IMG/VR virus record: IMGVR_UViG_3300031576_000012
Location: 30,997 to 94,996 of that record
Length of the DNA stretch: 64,000 bases
Strand: one strand, 5' to 3'
DNA from: a virus
In this document: one piece after another, positions 18,130 through 62,514 of the stretch
Numbering within the stretch: position 1 is the first letter of the stretch
Layout of the letters: every line of letters starts with the position of its first letter
The notes under the pieces: model-generated
The model's database searches: none
What the model was told of the DNA's origin: nothing
What the model saw: the letters and a program-made list of their open reading frames with translations, nothing else
Made by a program: the position numbers and the translations under genes

Positions 18130-18158
18130 TTGACATATAATCCTATTCCTGGTATAAT
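18130..18158 (+). promoter_or_regulatory. Rightward consensus promoter (TTGACA-17-TATAAT, extended -10)
   Basis: Perfect -35 (18130-18135) and -10 (18153-18158) boxes with ideal 17-base spacing and TGG before the -10. This is the best promoter in the window. Transcription should begin near 18165, giving a leader of about 220 bases before the first gene. Confidence 0.8.
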
Positions 18159-18273
18159 ATATGCATGTGTTATGTATATAAGCATAATTCATTGCACCCT
18201 ATATATGTATTATTACATATTGATAATTGAATGTCAATATATAAATTGATTAATGATTTCAATATGATATGGG

Positions 18274-18821: not shown

Positions 18822-19062
18822 AGAGCACAGTTTTATGCATCAAGGGGACTGTATAGGACATACTCATAAGTTTACAATTAAGATTAGTACGGTTCCAAAT
18901 GTAACTCCTGGGCAGCTTGTAGAAGTATTCAGGGATGACGTAAAGATTATGAACTATATGATATTAAACGATCAGTGTCCAAGGGTGATCTCTACATACT
19001 TTAAAGAAGAAGAGGGAACCCAGGATGAGTATAATATAAAATATTCAAAAGAAGAGGAATAA
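18796..19062 (+). CDS. Hypothetical protein, 88 aa
   Basis: The start MEEPRIKTEEHSFMHQG has GAGAGA immediately upstream. Residues 13-50 look like beta strands with several His (GHTHKFTIKISTV), and the end is acidic (FKEEEGTQDEYNIKYSKEEE). Its last codons form the 5' arm of the hairpin that controls the next gene, so the two genes share sequence. Function unknown. Confidence 0.65.
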   Translation: MEEPRIKTEEHSFMHQGDCIGHTHKFTIKISTVPNVTPGQLVEVFRDDVKIMNYMILNDQCPRVISTYFKEEEGTQDEYNIKYSKEEE

Positions 19063-21181: not shown

Positions 21182-21209
21182 TCTTATTCTAGTGAGGTAA
21201 TCAACCGTG

Positions 21210-21713
21210 ATGAGCGAAAAGCCATTCAAACAGAAGTTTAAAGAACTAATGGATGACGCTTCTAAACTCGTTAAGGAAGCTACCCCAAAAGAAATAGAAG
21301 AGATTAAGGTTAATCTATTTAATACAACTATTCTCCCTTCCTCAGACCTGGTTTGCAAAACCGACGAGGAATTTGATTTACGAGTACTTTATCGTATTAC
21401 AGGAGTCATTGGTGAATTGCCTTACATTCTTATACATCATGATGAACTTACAGACGCGCAAATCGAAAAGCATCGACAAAAAGCTCTCTCTGAGCACAAA
21501 AAGTTCATCTTACCCTCTATTGTCGAACCAATCTCAAATCACCCTGATCGCCAATTTACCCCTTATCTCGTATTTCCAACACACGACAAATTACTTTTTC
21601 TATTGCCTCTCGAAGGCTCGGCTTTTTCTGATATCGAATTTGAAGATCCACAATCTGAATCTGATGAGGATTTAGAAGACGATTTCGACTTTCCATCTGA
21701 GGATGAAGAATAG
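21210..21713 (+). CDS. Hypothetical protein with acidic tail, 167 aa
   Basis: The body is mixed alpha/beta (PSSDLVCKTDEEFDLRVLY, FTPYLVFPTHDKLLFLLPL) and the last 30 residues are almost all acidic (SDEDLEDDFDFPSEDEE). Acidic tails of this kind can mimic nucleic acid or bind basic host proteins. A GTG three bases before the ATG is an alternative start. It is directly followed by the structured RNA. Confidence 0.66.
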   Translation: MSEKPFKQKFKELMDDASKLVKEATPKEIEEIKVNLFNTTILPSSDLVCKTDEEFDLRVLYRITGVIGELPYILIHHDELTDAQIEKHRQKALSEHKKFILPSIVEPISNHPDRQFTPYLVFPTHDKLLFLLPLEGSAFSDIEFEDPQSESDEDLEDDFDFPSEDEE

Positions 21714-21720
21714 CTGGTGA

Positions 21721-22008
21721 AGGAAACGAGTATGGTGAAAACTATACTCATGCAATTCCTCCCAACTATCCCTTTAAAAAAGGATAGTACTTCCTCCTCA
21801 TCTGTTGGGCTAGGTGGCTTCGGCTGCCTAGTCCTTCAGAATTTATGTTCTTAAAGGCATAAACACAGTTTATGTTTTAAAAGACATAGATGCTTATACT
21901 GATGTGGCCATAAGCTTTAAACGGCCCGTGAAAGTGACCGCAAGGTCTGTGCAGCTATGCCCTATCCTACGTAGTAGGAATATAAGACTTAAATATGTTA
22001 TAGGGAAG
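21721..22008 (+). ncRNA. Structured RNA leader, candidate cis-regulatory RNA
   Basis: Successive strong hairpins: a 9-bp stem with GAAA loop (21728-21749) inside an AGGAA/TTCCT stem (21721-21760); a 7-bp stem (21765-21788); a 12-bp stem with UUCG loop (21807-21834, including G-U pairs); two similar stems (21842-21863 and 21869-21890) whose facing arms can instead pair as CATAAAC/GTTTATG (21858-21874); a GACC-GCAA-GGTC hairpin (21936-21947); and TCCTAC/GTAGGA (21965-21979) inside CCCTAT/ATAGGG (21960-21965 with 22000-22005, sharing one T with the inner stem). The last stem covers the AGGGAAG ribosome site of the gene at 22015. Stable tetraloops, alternative pairing and a hidden ribosome site suggest a riboswitch-like or packaging-linked RNA. 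I do not recognise a known family. Confidence 0.6.
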
Positions 22009-22014
22009 TATTCT

Positions 22015-22212
22015 ATGGATATTAAAAATACATTAAAAATAGTCGGTATCTATGCAGGGGTCGCTATAGCGTACATTCTTGCTGTAGATTTTTTTGCTGG
22101 TTACTTCCTTGGCAAATTCGATTATTGTATGGTAAAAATGTTTTTTAGTATGATCTTAGGTTGTTTTGCTCTTCATCCTCTTTCCAGATGGATTATTGGA
22201 AAAATTCTATAA
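22015..22212 (+). CDS. Small membrane protein with two helices, 65 aa
   Basis: Residues about 8-31 (IVGIYAGVAIAYILAVDFFA) and 40-60 (MFFSMILGCFALHPLSRWII) are hydrophobic. Size and topology would allow a holin. The start MDIKNTLKIV follows AGGGAAG by seven bases; a longer frame from 21904 runs through the structured RNA and is not favoured. It overlaps the next gene by one base (TAATG). Confidence 0.66.
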   Translation: MDIKNTLKIVGIYAGVAIAYILAVDFFAGYFLGKFDYCMVKMFFSMILGCFALHPLSRWIIGKIL

Positions 22213-22613
22213 TGGCTAAACCAAAAGATAACATAACCAAAAACAGTTCAGTTGCTACAAAGAAACCTGAAATGATTAATGGTGCCCCAGTTCGTAAGAG
22301 TGGGTCTGCTATTGCATCTATGCCAAAAAAGGAATATGTCAATACTATGAAATTTGACTATTCTAGTTTAGAATATAAGCAATATCCTAATAGGGTCAAA
22401 GTAAATATAGAATTGAATGAAGAGAGATTCCCAGCGGAATCTAAAGTTCCTCCTTATGATAAATATGATGAAAAGGGGAACTACATTAAAAATAAGTTTA
22501 TTGCTACTGAAAAGAAAGTGAAGAAGGTAGAAGGAGTAAAATACTCAATAGGTCAACTAGTGAGAGAACATGCCCTTTCTAACCCTCATAAAAACAATGG
22601 AAGAAAAAGATAA
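22212..22613 (+). CDS. Basic hypothetical protein, 133 aa
   Basis: Starts MAKPKDNITKNSSVATKK and is Lys/Asn/Pro-rich and probably partly disordered, with a short folded centre (NRVKVNIELNEERFPAES) and a basic end (NPHKNNGRKR). Located just before the terminase genes, so a virion or packaging role is possible. No family is recognised. Confidence 0.62.
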   Translation: MAKPKDNITKNSSVATKKPEMINGAPVRKSGSAIASMPKKEYVNTMKFDYSSLEYKQYPNRVKVNIELNEERFPAESKVPPYDKYDEKGNYIKNKFIATEKKVKKVEGVKYSIGQLVREHALSNPHKNNGRKR

Positions 22614-23145
22614 AACCTTATCCATCGTAAAAGATGAAGAAAAGGACAATCAGGAATTTACGAAGCTTTCTCTAAAAAAAAGAGTCGAGGCACTAGCACC
22701 TGGAAAATATAATCTTTTTCAAGAACTTTTACAAGAAATTCAAGCTTCAGATATTATTGATAATCTTCAAGGTAAAGATCTTTATCTTGAGAATCAATTA
22801 GCAAGATTAAAAATTCTTATTACAAATAAGTTTTCTTCAGATAAAGAAACAGCTGATTTGTTATTAGAATACACTCCTCCTGAACGAACTATTTATGGTT
22901 GGTTTATTGATGAGTGGAAAGAAGCAGTAATGTTAAAAGTTAAGTCTTCTTTTAGATTTAATGAATCAAGACGTTCTGCAGTATTTGATTCTATTTATAA
23001 AAAAGCAGTGGAAAAGGGAGACATGAAGGCTGCTGAGTTGTTTTGCAAACTCTCAGGAGATTTAGAATCGGGGAAGGGTTCTAAGGAATCTAAAGAAATG
23101 GAAGACTTTAAAGACTTCAATAGGATTCTTCATGGCAAAAAATAA
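22597..23145 (+). CDS. Putative terminase small subunit
   Basis: Lies three bases before the large terminase gene, the usual place for the small subunit that recognises phage DNA. The protein is helical, with a charged N-terminus and a C-terminal region SIYKKAVEKGDMKAAELFC followed by KLSGDLESGKG, which resembles the end of many small terminases (helix with KGDxxAAEL before a short tail). The start at 22597 has no clear ribosome site; ATG 22570 is an alternative. A helix-turn-helix cannot be placed by eye, so the call rests mainly on position. Confidence 0.58.
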   Translation: MEEKDKTLSIVKDEEKDNQEFTKLSLKKRVEALAPGKYNLFQELLQEIQASDIIDNLQGKDLYLENQLARLKILITNKFSSDKETADLLLEYTPPERTIYGWFIDEWKEAVMLKVKSSFRFNESRRSAVFDSIYKKAVEKGDMKAAELFCKLSGDLESGKGSKESKEMEDFKDFNRILHGKK

Positions 23146-23148
23146 TCT

Positions 23149-24624
23149 ATGTCACAATACGGCGAACCGCTTAAAATCCATGAATTGCATGTTGAAGAAC
23201 TAGTAGAGGAATTCTCGAAACGAGGCATTACTACCACTTCTTCAAAGATTGGTAAGCTACATCCAGCACAAATTCAAATCGTTCATGACGTAGGAAGATT
23301 CAAAGTATTAGCCTGTGGAAGACGTTTTGGTAAATCTTTGTTCTGTACGGCTGTAGCAGCTGCAGTTGCTATGCAGCCAGGAAGAAAGATCTGGATTGTT
23401 TCTGATAACTATGGTCTAACAGATAGAGTATTTGCAGAACTTTATCATCTTTTTGTTAATGAATTGAAATTAGCTGACTCTTCTAAAGGTGGAGCATCTT
23501 CTAAATTAAACAGATACATCAGATTACCTAATGGCAGTGTCATTGAAGGTAAATCTTGTGAAAACCGCAAATCTCTCGTAGGTGAATCTATTGATTTACT
23601 TATTTGGGATGAGTGCGCTTTAACTGTTGGAGGGGAAGATATCTGGAATCAGGAGCTTCGTCCTACTTTAATTGATAGAGAAGGTTCAGCTATCTTCATT
23701 TCTACTCCCCGTGGGAGAAACCATTTGTATAAGTTTTATATGAATGGGTTAGAAGGTATAGCTGCCAGAGAGAAACAGGCTCAAGGCTTACCTCTTACTG
23801 AAGATGAAACTATAAAATCAGAATGGTCAGGATTTAAATTTAGTTCTTATTGCAATACCACCAATCAAGGTGGCTATTTGAAGAAATCAGAAATTGATTC
23901 AATGAGACTATCAATGCCTGATGTTAAGTTTAGGCAAGAAGTTATGGCTGATTTTACAGCTGTAGCTGATTCTGTGTTCCCTGAATTTGCACAAGAGACT
24001 CAAGTTGTTGATTGGGACTTCAATCCAGCATGGCCAGTTTATGTGGCAATGGATTTTAACTACCAAACACCTTGTACTTCTTTGTATCTTCAAATTGATC
24101 CTAACAATAATATCTTAGTAATTGATGAATATCATCCTAAAGACGCACATAAAACCGTGCATCAACAGGCTAAACAGCTTTTAGAGATGGATCAAAGGTA
24201 TAATAAGAGAATTGAACTTATTGTAGCAGATATAGCTGGAAAACAGAAAGATCTAAATGGAAGAAGTGCATGGGATGATCTAGCTGATTGGAATATATAC
24301 CCAGTTGGCAGAAAGCAAAAAATAGAAACAGGTTGTGATTTAATTCGTTTATGGTGTTCATACCCTAAAGTAGACCAAAATAATCAACCTGTGTTTGATA
24401 AAGAAGAAAAACATATCGTATATCCTAAACTCTTTGTAAATAATAGATGTAAAAATTTAATATTTGCCTTAGAAGCTGCTCGTGCTCCAGAGGGGCAAGG
24501 TGGGGTTTCTAAAGAAGGATATAGAAAAGATGGTATAACAGACGGTCCATTAGATGCACTTCGGTATATTCTAGTGTACCTCTTACATGATTCCAATTTA
24601 GTTGGAACATTACCAGTAGTTTAA
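23149..24624 (+). CDS. terL: Terminase large subunit
   Basis: The motor that pumps DNA into the prohead and cuts it. ATPase: Walker A CGRRFGKS (residues 56-63), Walker B DLLIWDE (149-155) and coupling motif IFISTP (182-187). Nuclease of RNase H fold: acidic residues Asp302 (AMDFNY), Asp361 (VADIAG) and Asp469 (GPLDALRY). The 491-residue length is normal. It works with the portal and the candidate small subunit upstream. All key residues are present, so the enzyme should be active. Confidence 0.96.
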   Translation: MSQYGEPLKIHELHVEELVEEFSKRGITTTSSKIGKLHPAQIQIVHDVGRFKVLACGRRFGKSLFCTAVAAAVAMQPGRKIWIVSDNYGLTDRVFAELYHLFVNELKLADSSKGGASSKLNRYIRLPNGSVIEGKSCENRKSLVGESIDLLIWDECALTVGGEDIWNQELRPTLIDREGSAIFISTPRGRNHLYKFYMNGLEGIAAREKQAQGLPLTEDETIKSEWSGFKFSSYCNTTNQGGYLKKSEIDSMRLSMPDVKFRQEVMADFTAVADSVFPEFAQETQVVDWDFNPAWPVYVAMDFNYQTPCTSLYLQIDPNNNILVIDEYHPKDAHKTVHQQAKQLLEMDQRYNKRIELIVADIAGKQKDLNGRSAWDDLADWNIYPVGRKQKIETGCDLIRLWCSYPKVDQNNQPVFDKEEKHIVYPKLFVNNRCKNLIFALEAARAPEGQGGVSKEGYRKDGITDGPLDALRYILVYLLHDSNLVGTLPVV

Positions 24625-28304: not shown

Positions 28305-28322
28305 AAAAGAGAGGGAATTGCA

Positions 28323-28631
28323 ATGGAAAATAAGTATAGCTTAGTGTTGGATACACTACCTATGTCTTTTAGCTTAGATCAAGGTTCTAGGGAGGCAATG
28401 ATCAAAGCTCATAAGAAGTGGTCCATCAAAATTAAAAGAAGTCTGTGGATTGATATCCCAGCAAAAACACCTGTAACCATGAATACAAAGGTTTTTATTG
28501 CTCTTAGAGTAGTAGAGATCACTCCTGAACAGGAGAAAGCGTCTCAGGTGGAACAAGACCCAAGATATAAAACGTTTTTTCAGAACGCCAAGAATATCGG
28601 TCCTGATATAACAGATCAAGGGTATAAATAA
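28323..28631 (+). CDS. Hypothetical protein, 102 aa
   Basis: Alpha/beta pattern with a basic centre (KAHKKWSIKIKRSLWIDIP) and an acidic helix (EITPEQEKASQVEQD). Located between portal and scaffold, so a head assembly role is possible. GAGAGGGA precedes the ATG. Confidence 0.62.
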   Translation: MENKYSLVLDTLPMSFSLDQGSREAMIKAHKKWSIKIKRSLWIDIPAKTPVTMNTKVFIALRVVEITPEQEKASQVEQDPRYKTFFQNAKNIGPDITDQGYK

Positions 28632-38382: not shown

Positions 38383-39836
38383 TGGCTAAAAAATTTGTAA
38401 GAATTATTGAAGACATTGAAGAAGCCCTCTCAAGGGAAGTTCGCCATATTATCTTTTGGGAAGGTAGATACCGAGGAGATGATGGAATTGCTTTTAAAGA
38501 ATTATTCTCTCCATTCACAGGTGAGTTGATAAGACAGCCTATTGAACCTCGCTTCTATGATGATTCTGCAGACAGTTTAATAACTACACATCCTCGTTTT
38601 ACTCTACGTCTTTTGAAACTATATGAAGATAGGACGACTAAAAGGGGTACACCTCCTTATGGTGAAGAGTTAGTTTCTTTACTTCCTGGACCAGGTGCGT
38701 ATAAGACTAAGTTTGGTGGGGAAGATGCTAAAACTACTAATGGTGGTGGTGATAGCACAATCGACCTTACACATAGAAAAATTAGAGAAGTTCTAGTGGG
38801 TGATTGGATTAGACTTCTTACTAAGAACAATATTGGCACTTATAGAATAAGTGCTATTACTTTAAACGGAAATGGCCCTCATACTTTAACTTTAAGTAAT
38901 GATTTGCTAACAAACCTGCCTATCTTTAATTATAATAAGAATGCAGGAATTATCGCGTTTAGAGAATTTGTAGATCTAAAAGTAGTAAAAATTGGAGACA
39001 CCATAGTTGATAATACTAGTACTGCTTTTGTTATCACTGCTGTTAATGCTCCAGATTCTACTTTAGCGATTGCTCCAAGTAGTGCTATTGCAAACGGTGC
39101 AAATGCTAAGATTACTAGAATTGGTAACGTTCTTCAAAATGATGATTCAGATGAAAATGTTTGTTACCAACTTTTAGATCCTACACAGCCTATTGCTGAT
39201 AAAGGAACAAGGTACGTAAAAAAGAGTCAATTGATTCCTTATACCTTTCTTTATTATATTAAGATTGTATCTCGTGAGAGAGATGATCATATTGCAGTGG
39301 CTGATAGAATGATGCAAGTATTCAACCCTCCAAGAGGAGCGTTAGGGACTGTAATTCGTTCTCAAGTTTCTGCCCACGGCATTTTGAAAAAAGATGCTAA
39401 TGCAGGAGATAAAATCCTTTATGTAGATGATTCATCTATATTTTATCCTAATGATCGTGTAAGGATTTTAGATAATCTAAGTTCTGGAGAAGAGGCAATC
39501 GTAGACAGTGTTAATAATGTAAGTAATGCTGTTACTATTAGGACTTCTTTAACCGCTTCGTATTCTAAAGATCGTTGTGGTTTACTCGCAAGTAATGTAG
39601 ATTTTTGTGCATTAGAGCGGGATTTTATGAACCATGAAACTGAAGATAAAGAAGATATGCAATTATGGGTTCACAGGTTCACTTTCAGGATAGAAGCCTG
39701 GGTTGAATCTAGGATAGAACCTCTAGAAACAAGCTACCAAGAAACAACGGAGAGGGAAGTTGGAGATGTTAACTACATCAAGGCTTGTTTAGAAAATATG
39801 GATGCGGTTATCTTAGATGAGAACCTCATTACATAA
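38382..39836 (+). CDS. Putative tail completion protein, 484 aa
   Basis: The N-terminal 100 residues are mixed helix and strand (IEDIEEALSREVRHIIFWE). The middle has three copies of a small beta domain: VLVGDWIRLLTKNN, VKIGDTIVDNTSTAF and FYPNDRVRILDNL with following IxxV strands. The C-terminal part (WVHRFTFRIEAWVESRIEPL) has the look of a T4 gp15/gp3-type terminator. Lies just before the sheath gene, as expected for a tail terminator. Confidence 0.6.
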   Translation: MAKKFVRIIEDIEEALSREVRHIIFWEGRYRGDDGIAFKELFSPFTGELIRQPIEPRFYDDSADSLITTHPRFTLRLLKLYEDRTTKRGTPPYGEELVSLLPGPGAYKTKFGGEDAKTTNGGGDSTIDLTHRKIREVLVGDWIRLLTKNNIGTYRISAITLNGNGPHTLTLSNDLLTNLPIFNYNKNAGIIAFREFVDLKVVKIGDTIVDNTSTAFVITAVNAPDSTLAIAPSSAIANGANAKITRIGNVLQNDDSDENVCYQLLDPTQPIADKGTRYVKKSQLIPYTFLYYIKIVSRERDDHIAVADRMMQVFNPPRGALGTVIRSQVSAHGILKKDANAGDKILYVDDSSIFYPNDRVRILDNLSSGEEAIVDSVNNVSNAVTIRTSLTASYSKDRCGLLASNVDFCALERDFMNHETEDKEDMQLWVHRFTFRIEAWVESRIEPLETSYQETTEREVGDVNYIKACLENMDAVILDENLIT

Positions 39837-39848
39837 TGGGAGGGATTA

Positions 39849-40145
39849 ATGAAAAAATACAAAAATGTAAGTGGAACTCCCCTTGCTTTAGATTGTATTA
39901 CTAAAACAGTTTATATGAAACCAGGAGAGGTTTTATCATTACCTCGTTCAAGAGATATAAGATATTACTCTGGTTTAGGTAAATTAGTTTTAATCAAAGA
40001 AAGAAAAATGGAAGTTCCTGTGTTAAATCAGGAACCTATTCAACCTACTCTTCAAGCGCAGGAAGTTCTTAAAAAGAAGAAATCTTCCAAAAGACATGAA
40101 GAGAAGGAAGAAGAAAATTATAACAATAAAATGGAGAATGAATAA
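39849..40145 (+). CDS. Hypothetical protein before the sheath gene, 98 aa
   Basis: The first 50 residues (KNVSGTPLALDCITKTVYMK, then PGEVLSLPRSRDIRYY) resemble a small beta-barrel cap; the end is Lys/Glu-rich and disordered. One base overlap with the sheath gene (AATAATG). Function unknown. Confidence 0.62.
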   Translation: MKKYKNVSGTPLALDCITKTVYMKPGEVLSLPRSRDIRYYSGLGKLVLIKERKMEVPVLNQEPIQPTLQAQEVLKKKKSSKRHEEKEEENYNNKMENE

Positions 40146-61619: not shown

Positions 61620-61931
61620 ATGGCTATTGAATCAAGAAGAATACCAAGAGTTATTTCTAGAACTCCTACAGCAGTTAGTTATATGTCTACAGGAGAAGGT
61701 TTGATTGCGGTAACTAATACAGCCGCTCCGAGAACTATTACTCTTTCAAATGATGATAAAATTAACGGGAAAGTTATTGATATTAAAGATGAATCTGGTG
61801 GAGCCGGAACTAATAATATTACAGTAACCCCACAAACAGGAACCATTGATGGTGCTGCTTCAGTATTAATCACCGCAAATTATGGTATATTAAGAGTCTA
61901 TAGTGATGGAAATTCGTGGTTTTCAAGATAA
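61620..61931 (+). CDS. Stand-alone fibre capping domain, 103 aa
   Basis: Residues 20-103 (STGEGLIAVTNTAAPRTITL, ANYGILRVYSDGNSWFSR) are similar to the last 80 residues of the preceding fibre protein. It could be a separate tip protein or the remains of a longer fibre gene. The HNH gene follows at once, and the C-termini of both proteins end in N-(S)WFSR. Confidence 0.72.
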   Translation: MAIESRRIPRVISRTPTAVSYMSTGEGLIAVTNTAAPRTITLSNDDKINGKVIDIKDESGGAGTNNITVTPQTGTIDGAASVLITANYGILRVYSDGNSWFSR

Positions 61932-61935
61932 TTGT

Positions 61936-62514
61936 ATGAAACTCAATAATATAAATGAAAAACTGTCTAAAGATGTTCTTGTGGACTTATATTATACCCA
62001 AAAAATGTCTGTAGAGAAGATAACAAAAGTAACAAAATCTTCTAAACCAACTGTAATAAATCAAATGAAAAAATTTGATATACTGAGACGAAATAGAAAA
62101 GAAATGACAAGTGGATTAAATCATTGGAAATTTCAACCAGCTTTAGACAGGATTTGTTTGCATTGCCTTAAAAGTTATAGGGCAAATACAATAAATGACA
62201 GCAATTTTTGTAGTTTAGCCTGTTATTGGCAATCTATGGAAAAAGATTTTGAACCAACACATAGACGATTTTTAACAACCAGTAAATGGAAGAAATTTGC
62301 AGCTAAAGTAAAAAATAATAGGAATCTTATTTGTAATTTATGTTCTCTTAAAAATGAAGAATGTATTGAACTGTATGGAAAATCATTACATTTACATCAT
62401 ATTATACCAAGAGACATAAGACCTGATTTAGCTTTAGATGAAAATAATCTTAATCTATTGTGCCCAACTTGTCATATAAAAGAACATAAACAATCAAATT
62501 GGTTTAGTCGATAA
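61936..62514 (+). CDS. HNH endonuclease with N-terminal helix-turn-helix
   Basis: The first 50 residues (KLSKDVLVDLYYTQKMSVEK, then ITKVTKSSKPTVINQMKKF) form a helix-turn-helix. CLHC...CSLAC provides one zinc site near residues 64-85, and CNLCSLKNEEC, SLHLHHIIPRD and LLCPTCHIKEH make the HNH nuclease core. The last residues, SNWFSR, and the following TAAGGAGATATA copy the end of the fibre genes. It is inserted between fibre genes and probably cuts fibre DNA of related phages. Confidence 0.86.
   Translation: MKLNNINEKLSKDVLVDLYYTQKMSVEKITKVTKSSKPTVINQMKKFDILRRNRKEMTSGLNHWKFQPALDRICLHCLKSYRANTINDSNFCSLACYWQSMEKDFEPTHRRFLTTSKWKKFAAKVKNNRNLICNLCSLKNEECIELYGKSLHLHHIIPRDIRPDLALDENNLNLLCPTCHIKEHKQSNWFSR

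Follow-up and report, generated by a model that had tools for sequence, protein, structure and literature searches.

The window, a stretch of 64,000 nucleotides taken from a virus record of 95 kb in IMG/VR whose head and tail genes are of myovirus type, encodes a structured RNA of ~125 nt on its plus strand, the coding strand of the late operon. The best explanation of this RNA is a new, previously undescribed family in a group of uncultured myovirus-like tailed phages. As to function, we tentatively propose, at somewhat short of an even chance, an anti-Shine-Dalgarno (anti-SD) regulatory RNA of these phages that is processed from an operon and base-pairs with start sites.

A compact conserved RNA core

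An earlier note, made from the letters of the window, had described a single structured RNA at 21721-22008. The structured RNA is real, but it was wrongly bounded, since the conserved RNA spans only 21718-21843. This core folds at -50.2 kcal/mol with a z score of -6.9 (200 dinucleotide shuffles, none as stable), and it contributes nearly all of the signal of the full 310 nt region (z -6.5). The expectation of a fold better than shuffled sequence was borne out for the core and barely for 21841-22030, which on its own gave a z of only -1.96. Homologues in related phages stop at the UUCG-type hairpin, the sequence downstream varies, and the five sequences, including that of the window, fold with z between -5.1 and -7.5. 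In the reported region, a strong conserved RNA of ~125 nt gives way to an ordinary leader that is specific to this phage. The core consists of three hairpins (P1 to P3) separated by two linkers (L1 and L2), in the following order:

21718-21843, plus strand: whole conserved structured RNA (core), delimited by the z of -6.9, the homologues and covariation
21720-21726, plus strand: 5' purine strand AAGGAAA, immediately 3' of the stop codon of the upstream gene A, from a partition-function calculation
21728-21749, plus strand: hairpin P1, 9 bp with a GAAA tetraloop, 100% paired in five sequences
21750-21764, plus strand: linker L1, AUGCAAUUCCUCCCA, which carries the anti-SD core CCUCC and is near-invariant across lineages
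21765-21788, plus strand: hairpin P2, 7 bp in the window, a hairpin in every homologue with differing sequence
21789-21805, plus strand: linker L2, ACUUCCUCCUCAUCUGU, with a second CCUCC, invariant except for an A/G; its last bases enter P3
21802-21839, plus strand: long hairpin P3, a CUG/CAG base and a 12-bp stem (21807-21834) with a C(UUCG)G loop, supported by compensatory changes

The two stable stems that the earlier note had singled out, 9 bp with GAAA and 12 bp with UUCG, are both present, as P1 and the body of P3. Also present are the GCAA hairpin (21936-21947) and the two similar AU-rich hairpins (about 21840-21895) of its downstream part. The tandem pair of similar AU-rich hairpins at 21846-22010 is specific to the window phage and is possibly a local duplication; L043 has a different AU-rich hairpin in the equivalent position.

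Homologues and gene order

IMG/VR yielded four further intact homologues and a truncated one, always as a single copy per record. Together with the window, the intact homologues make up four independent lineages, L008 and L018 being closely related; the family is thus based on only four lineages, from IMG/VR records that may be fragments. L003, whose TerL is 63% identical to that of the window, has the same arrangement, with the RNA directly before gene B. L007, L008 and L018, along with near-identical contigs, came from a two-tract scan of 2.9 million viral contigs, and the truncated copy (L031/L043) was found by a second sequence pattern. All RNA bearers have a TerL 60-65% identical to that of the window. 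Scans with relaxed patterns, with a TerL profile and with gene A returned the same loci and no extra homologues, and the remaining pattern-scan matches were attributable to chance. Likewise, blastn against phages and plasmids gave no match and no new locus, the TerL scan of a genome collection gave distant terminases only, and Rfam 15 held no family at or above its gathering cut-off for the RNA. The genes around the RNA in the window are as follows:

21207-21713, plus strand: gene A, function unassigned, always directly upstream of the RNA
22015-22212, plus strand: small membrane-protein gene, which follows the RNA in the window phage only
22212-22613, plus strand: gene B, function unassigned, conserved across the phages
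22597-23145, plus strand: putative terminase small subunit (TerS), assigned by position, with no family match
23149-24624, plus strand: terminase large subunit (TerL; PHROG 2, E 1.8e-31; Pfam Terminase_6N)

The RNA always lies between the fast-evolving small gene A, which ends in a stop codon that adjoins or overlaps the RNA, and TerS/TerL, 0.5-1.5 kb upstream of the latter. The gene that comes next varies by lineage and may be the membrane protein, gene B, a zinc-finger gene or another small gene, at a distance of about 15 to 174 nt. By eye, the window also contains an HNH-like gene overlapping a peptide-deformylase-like gene (380-1337) and a second HNH-like gene amid the tail genes (61903-62514). 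In L003, many dispersed AT-rich repeats (ATATACNNTGTATAT-like) are found where genes are sparse, upstream of the late operon (961-1900).

Covariation and strand

In a model-fitted alignment, P1 was paired in all five sequences (100%) with both sides changed in seven of its nine pairs, so the compensatory changes that the earlier note had proposed to look for are indeed found in relatives. P1 and P2 together had a covariation score of 0.675; none of 500 shuffles reached any of five measures, and slid controls scored at most 0.131. P2 shifts register between lineages, which lowers its column scores in this alignment. With the helices assigned manually, we counted 151 pairs, none non-canonical and 13 of them G-U. 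Since these 13 pairs would be A-C mismatches on the opposite strand, they fix the plus strand. The loops interchange among GAAA, GUAA, GCAA, UUCG and UUUG, and hence between GNRA and UNCG types; these are the usual stable RNA tetraloops. These data place the structure of the plus-strand RNA under selection. Both the G-U pairs and the tetraloop exchange speak against a DNA site in double-stranded form and against an RNA from the minus strand, which are unlikely, and on the same evidence we rejected a minus-strand element, although an SD-AUG is visible on that strand. Taken together, covariation, conservation and the lack of an Rfam match uphold the description of this locus as an undescribed structured RNA.

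Near-invariant linkers

While the stems vary freely, the linkers AUG(CA/UG)AUUCCUCCCA and ACUUCCUCCUCRUCUGU are almost invariant and form the most conserved part of the RNA. The sole differences are UG for CA in L1 of the L008/L018 group and an A/G in L2. By comparison, gene A is 28-37% identical between phages. Because the linkers stay near-invariant as stems and gene A vary, conservation is aimed at the exposed strands. Both linkers include CCUCC, the ribosomal anti-SD core found in the 16S rRNA tail.

Several other accounts of the sequence were rejected. The frame that begins at the AUG of L1 is 34 codons long in the window, 43 in L003, 10 in L007 and a bare AUG-stop in L008; this inconsistency between phages indicates that this frame is untranslated, which goes against the translation that would have undermined the earlier note's RNA. 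Frames past the gene A stop codon end at unrelated places, which disposed of read-through, and the purine strand is too variable for a pyrimidine-purine triplex.

Invariant single strands between variable hairpins would also suit a protein site, and two similar tracts could serve a dimer. The hairpins might then display the linkers to a phage or host protein, such as a late-operon regulator or an assembly factor. We consider this unlikely, as it does not account for the anti-SD core sequence. Moreover, apart from the terminase genes the RNA has one constant neighbour, gene A, which is fast-evolving and whose predicted structure, a weak model with no informative match, does not suffice to suggest RNA binding.

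Proposed function and candidate targets

In the anti-SD reading that we favor, the three stable hairpins would present UUCCUCCCA and CUUCCUCCUC as single-stranded pyrimidine tracts; these would pair with the SD or start sites of chosen phage or host mRNAs and block ribosome binding. In a partition-function calculation, each pyrimidine tract is a possible partner of the 5' purine strand, though not both simultaneously, and neither tract needs more than 2.0 kcal/mol to open; by covering one tract at a time, this strand may tune activity.

Any CCUCC tract pairs with SD sites. The first tract with its flank (L1) is, beyond this, the complement of UGGGAGGAAUUGCAU, a start site composed of SD, spacer and AU(G). 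We ranked L1 pairing over the 32 gene families shared by four phages, a test that was devised after the match had been seen and is therefore post hoc. Two start sites in the window stood out as tentative candidates:

39834-39858, plus strand: start site of a small gene (39849) before the tail sheath, the best L1 pairing
28309-28326, plus strand: start site GAGAGGGAAUUGCAAUGG of a small gene (28323-28631) after the portal, the second-best L1 pairing

Mean L1 pairing was -17.2 kcal/mol for the pre-tail-sheath gene and -16.7 kcal/mol for the post-portal gene, compared with -13.6 kcal/mol for the next family. None of 300 flank shuffles that kept CCUCC matched the top family, nor did any of 54 anti-start-site controls taken from sister phages, the nearest of these controls reaching -17.1 against -17.2. 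Averaged over all genes, the flanks of CCUCC were not special. For the post-portal gene, in four of five phages the resident version of L1 paired more strongly than the alternative one (-25.2 against -18.4, -23.8 against -20.6, -15.8 against -12.9 and -19.3 against -17.7); in G001 the resident version was the weaker (-19.1 against -21.0). As a natural negative control, we searched phages without the RNA for orthologues of the two candidate genes and found none, and a structure predicted for the post-portal protein matched nothing informative. These pairings are suggestive of two conserved head/tail genes as L1 targets that partly track the linker change.

A bolder version, which we regard as rather improbable, is that the RNA is a phage mimic of the 16S rRNA 3' end, with a helix-45-like 9-bp tetraloop hairpin and a CCUCC tail, repeated once. 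Such a mimic would co-evolve with head/tail start sites and, acting in trans, determine when virion proteins are made or in what amounts.

Most known anti-SD regulatory RNAs come from bacterial chromosomes, and few covariation-proven RNAs have come from virulent-looking phages. If our proposal is true, these phages would use RNA to steer the assembly of virions or the shut-off of the host. It can be tested directly with the covariance model and the two predicted target sites.

Transcription and position in the late operon

A consensus search found neither an own promoter nor an intrinsic terminator at the RNA, and a search with the sigma-70 consensus gave plus-strand promoter-like sites at 18935 and 22347 with none in the interval, and strong sigma-70-like sites at 18130 and 18694. 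With no promoter just upstream, the RNA probably arises by cleavage of the late-operon transcript; in our proposal it would be transcribed within the operon and released between gene A and the next gene. A separate non-coding RNA was the closest of the earlier note's suggestions, although this one is probably processed from the late operon, given the lack of a consensus sigma-70 promoter just upstream. Further upstream, 18130-18240 is a divergent switch between two gene blocks, with a perfect TTGACA-17-TATAAT on the plus strand and a sigma-70-like site (11/12 match) on the minus strand. These sites suggest, from their sequence, that host polymerase is used.

The same surroundings would fit an intercistronic processing or stability element, whose hairpins guard the 3' end of the upstream mRNA and mark a cleavage point before the terminase genes. 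In all of the phages gene A lies on one side of the RNA and the terminase region on the other, AU-rich sequence comes after P3, and neither a promoter nor a terminator of its own was found. For such an element, however, stable hairpins suffice, and yet the near-invariant linkers are the most conserved part, which renders this explanation rather unlikely.

Position was also the sole support for a packaging RNA, which the earlier note had offered given the terminase genes. The constant location 0.5-1.5 kb upstream of TerS/TerL and two direct TTCCTCC repeats would suit a pRNA-like molecule or a pac/cos site for terminase recognition. The packaging RNA of phi29 (RF00044) is likewise a structured phage RNA, of ~120 nt. 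In contrast to phi29, the phages here carry ordinary TerS and TerL genes; the RF00044 model gave no match, though the control genomes were equally silent, and the strand-specific G-U pairs and tetraloops oppose a DNA site. We therefore hold a packaging role to be quite improbable, even though a sister TerL clade (about 41% identity), which does not carry this RNA, has another structured RNA in the equivalent position.

That sister-clade stretch is a different non-coding structure of 250-300 nt, with z of -3.5 to -4.3 where measured and no Rfam match:

L054, 4768-5014: sister-clade structured stretch
L056, 4762-5051: sister-clade structured stretch
L057, 3864-4170: sister-clade structured stretch
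L066, 4831-5109: sister-clade structured stretch

By eye, a hairpin loop in it (GUCGGGAC, AUCGGGAC, UUCGGGGA) can form a pseudoknot, with a compensatory change, by pairing to GUGUCCCG or AUGCCCGA downstream, and a GC-rich hairpin then precedes the next gene. Another sister-clade phage has a Group I intron (RF00028, E 4e-17) downstream of a terminase gene (L059, 6625-6975).

A cis-regulatory leader, be it riboswitch or attenuator, is very improbable: a gene does follow the RNA in every phage, with gene B of L003 only 15 nt beyond the last hairpin, but this reading fails because lineages differ both in which gene comes next and in how far away it lies. The "riboswitch-like" label had nothing beyond folding in its favor. 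The earlier note had further proposed that a CCCTAT/ATAGGG stem sequesters the ribosome binding site of the gene at 22015. Its arms exist (21960-21965 and 22000-22005), but the stem is neither conserved nor part of the predicted fold, it lies outside the conserved core, and the gene that it would control is lineage-dependent, so sequestration is not supported.

Comparison with known systems

The closest counterparts in design are ar14/NfeR1 and ar15/AbcR of alphaproteobacteria (RF02344, RF02345; "cuckoo" RNAs), which also have several hairpins, variable stems and more than one unpaired CU-rich anti-SD motif (PMC10746234). The ar14/NfeR1 sRNAs combine variable stems with an invariant unpaired anti-SD motif and silence mRNAs at the ribosome site (PMC10746234). 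Their hallmark, an invariant unpaired CCUCC motif among variable stems, recurs in the phage RNA, although its motifs between the hairpins (UUCCUCCCA and CUUCCUCCUC) differ from that of ar14/ar15 (CCUCCUCCC). Unlike these sRNAs, the phage RNA is encoded inside an operon. The Rfam ar14/ar15 models gave no match over cut-off in G000, G001, G002 and G005, and none at the RNA. We take the likeness to be one of design, not of membership.

CcsR RNAs have CU-rich loops. As with CcsR1-4 of Rhodobacter sphaeroides, we propose that the phage sRNA is cut from an mRNA after a small gene; the CcsR RNAs are released from the 3' UTR of a small gene's mRNA, that of ccaF1 (PMC8625941). CcsR1-4, in contrast to the phage RNA, are bacterial, occur as tandem copies and act in the stress response, and their partner CcaF1 is not gene A. 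DicF is a single, prophage-borne antisense RNA against ftsZ and is not known to carry anti-SD tracts of this kind. The phage RNA resembles it in its proposed release from between protein genes, the route by which DicF and other phage sRNAs are freed from operons (reviewed in PMC12197685).
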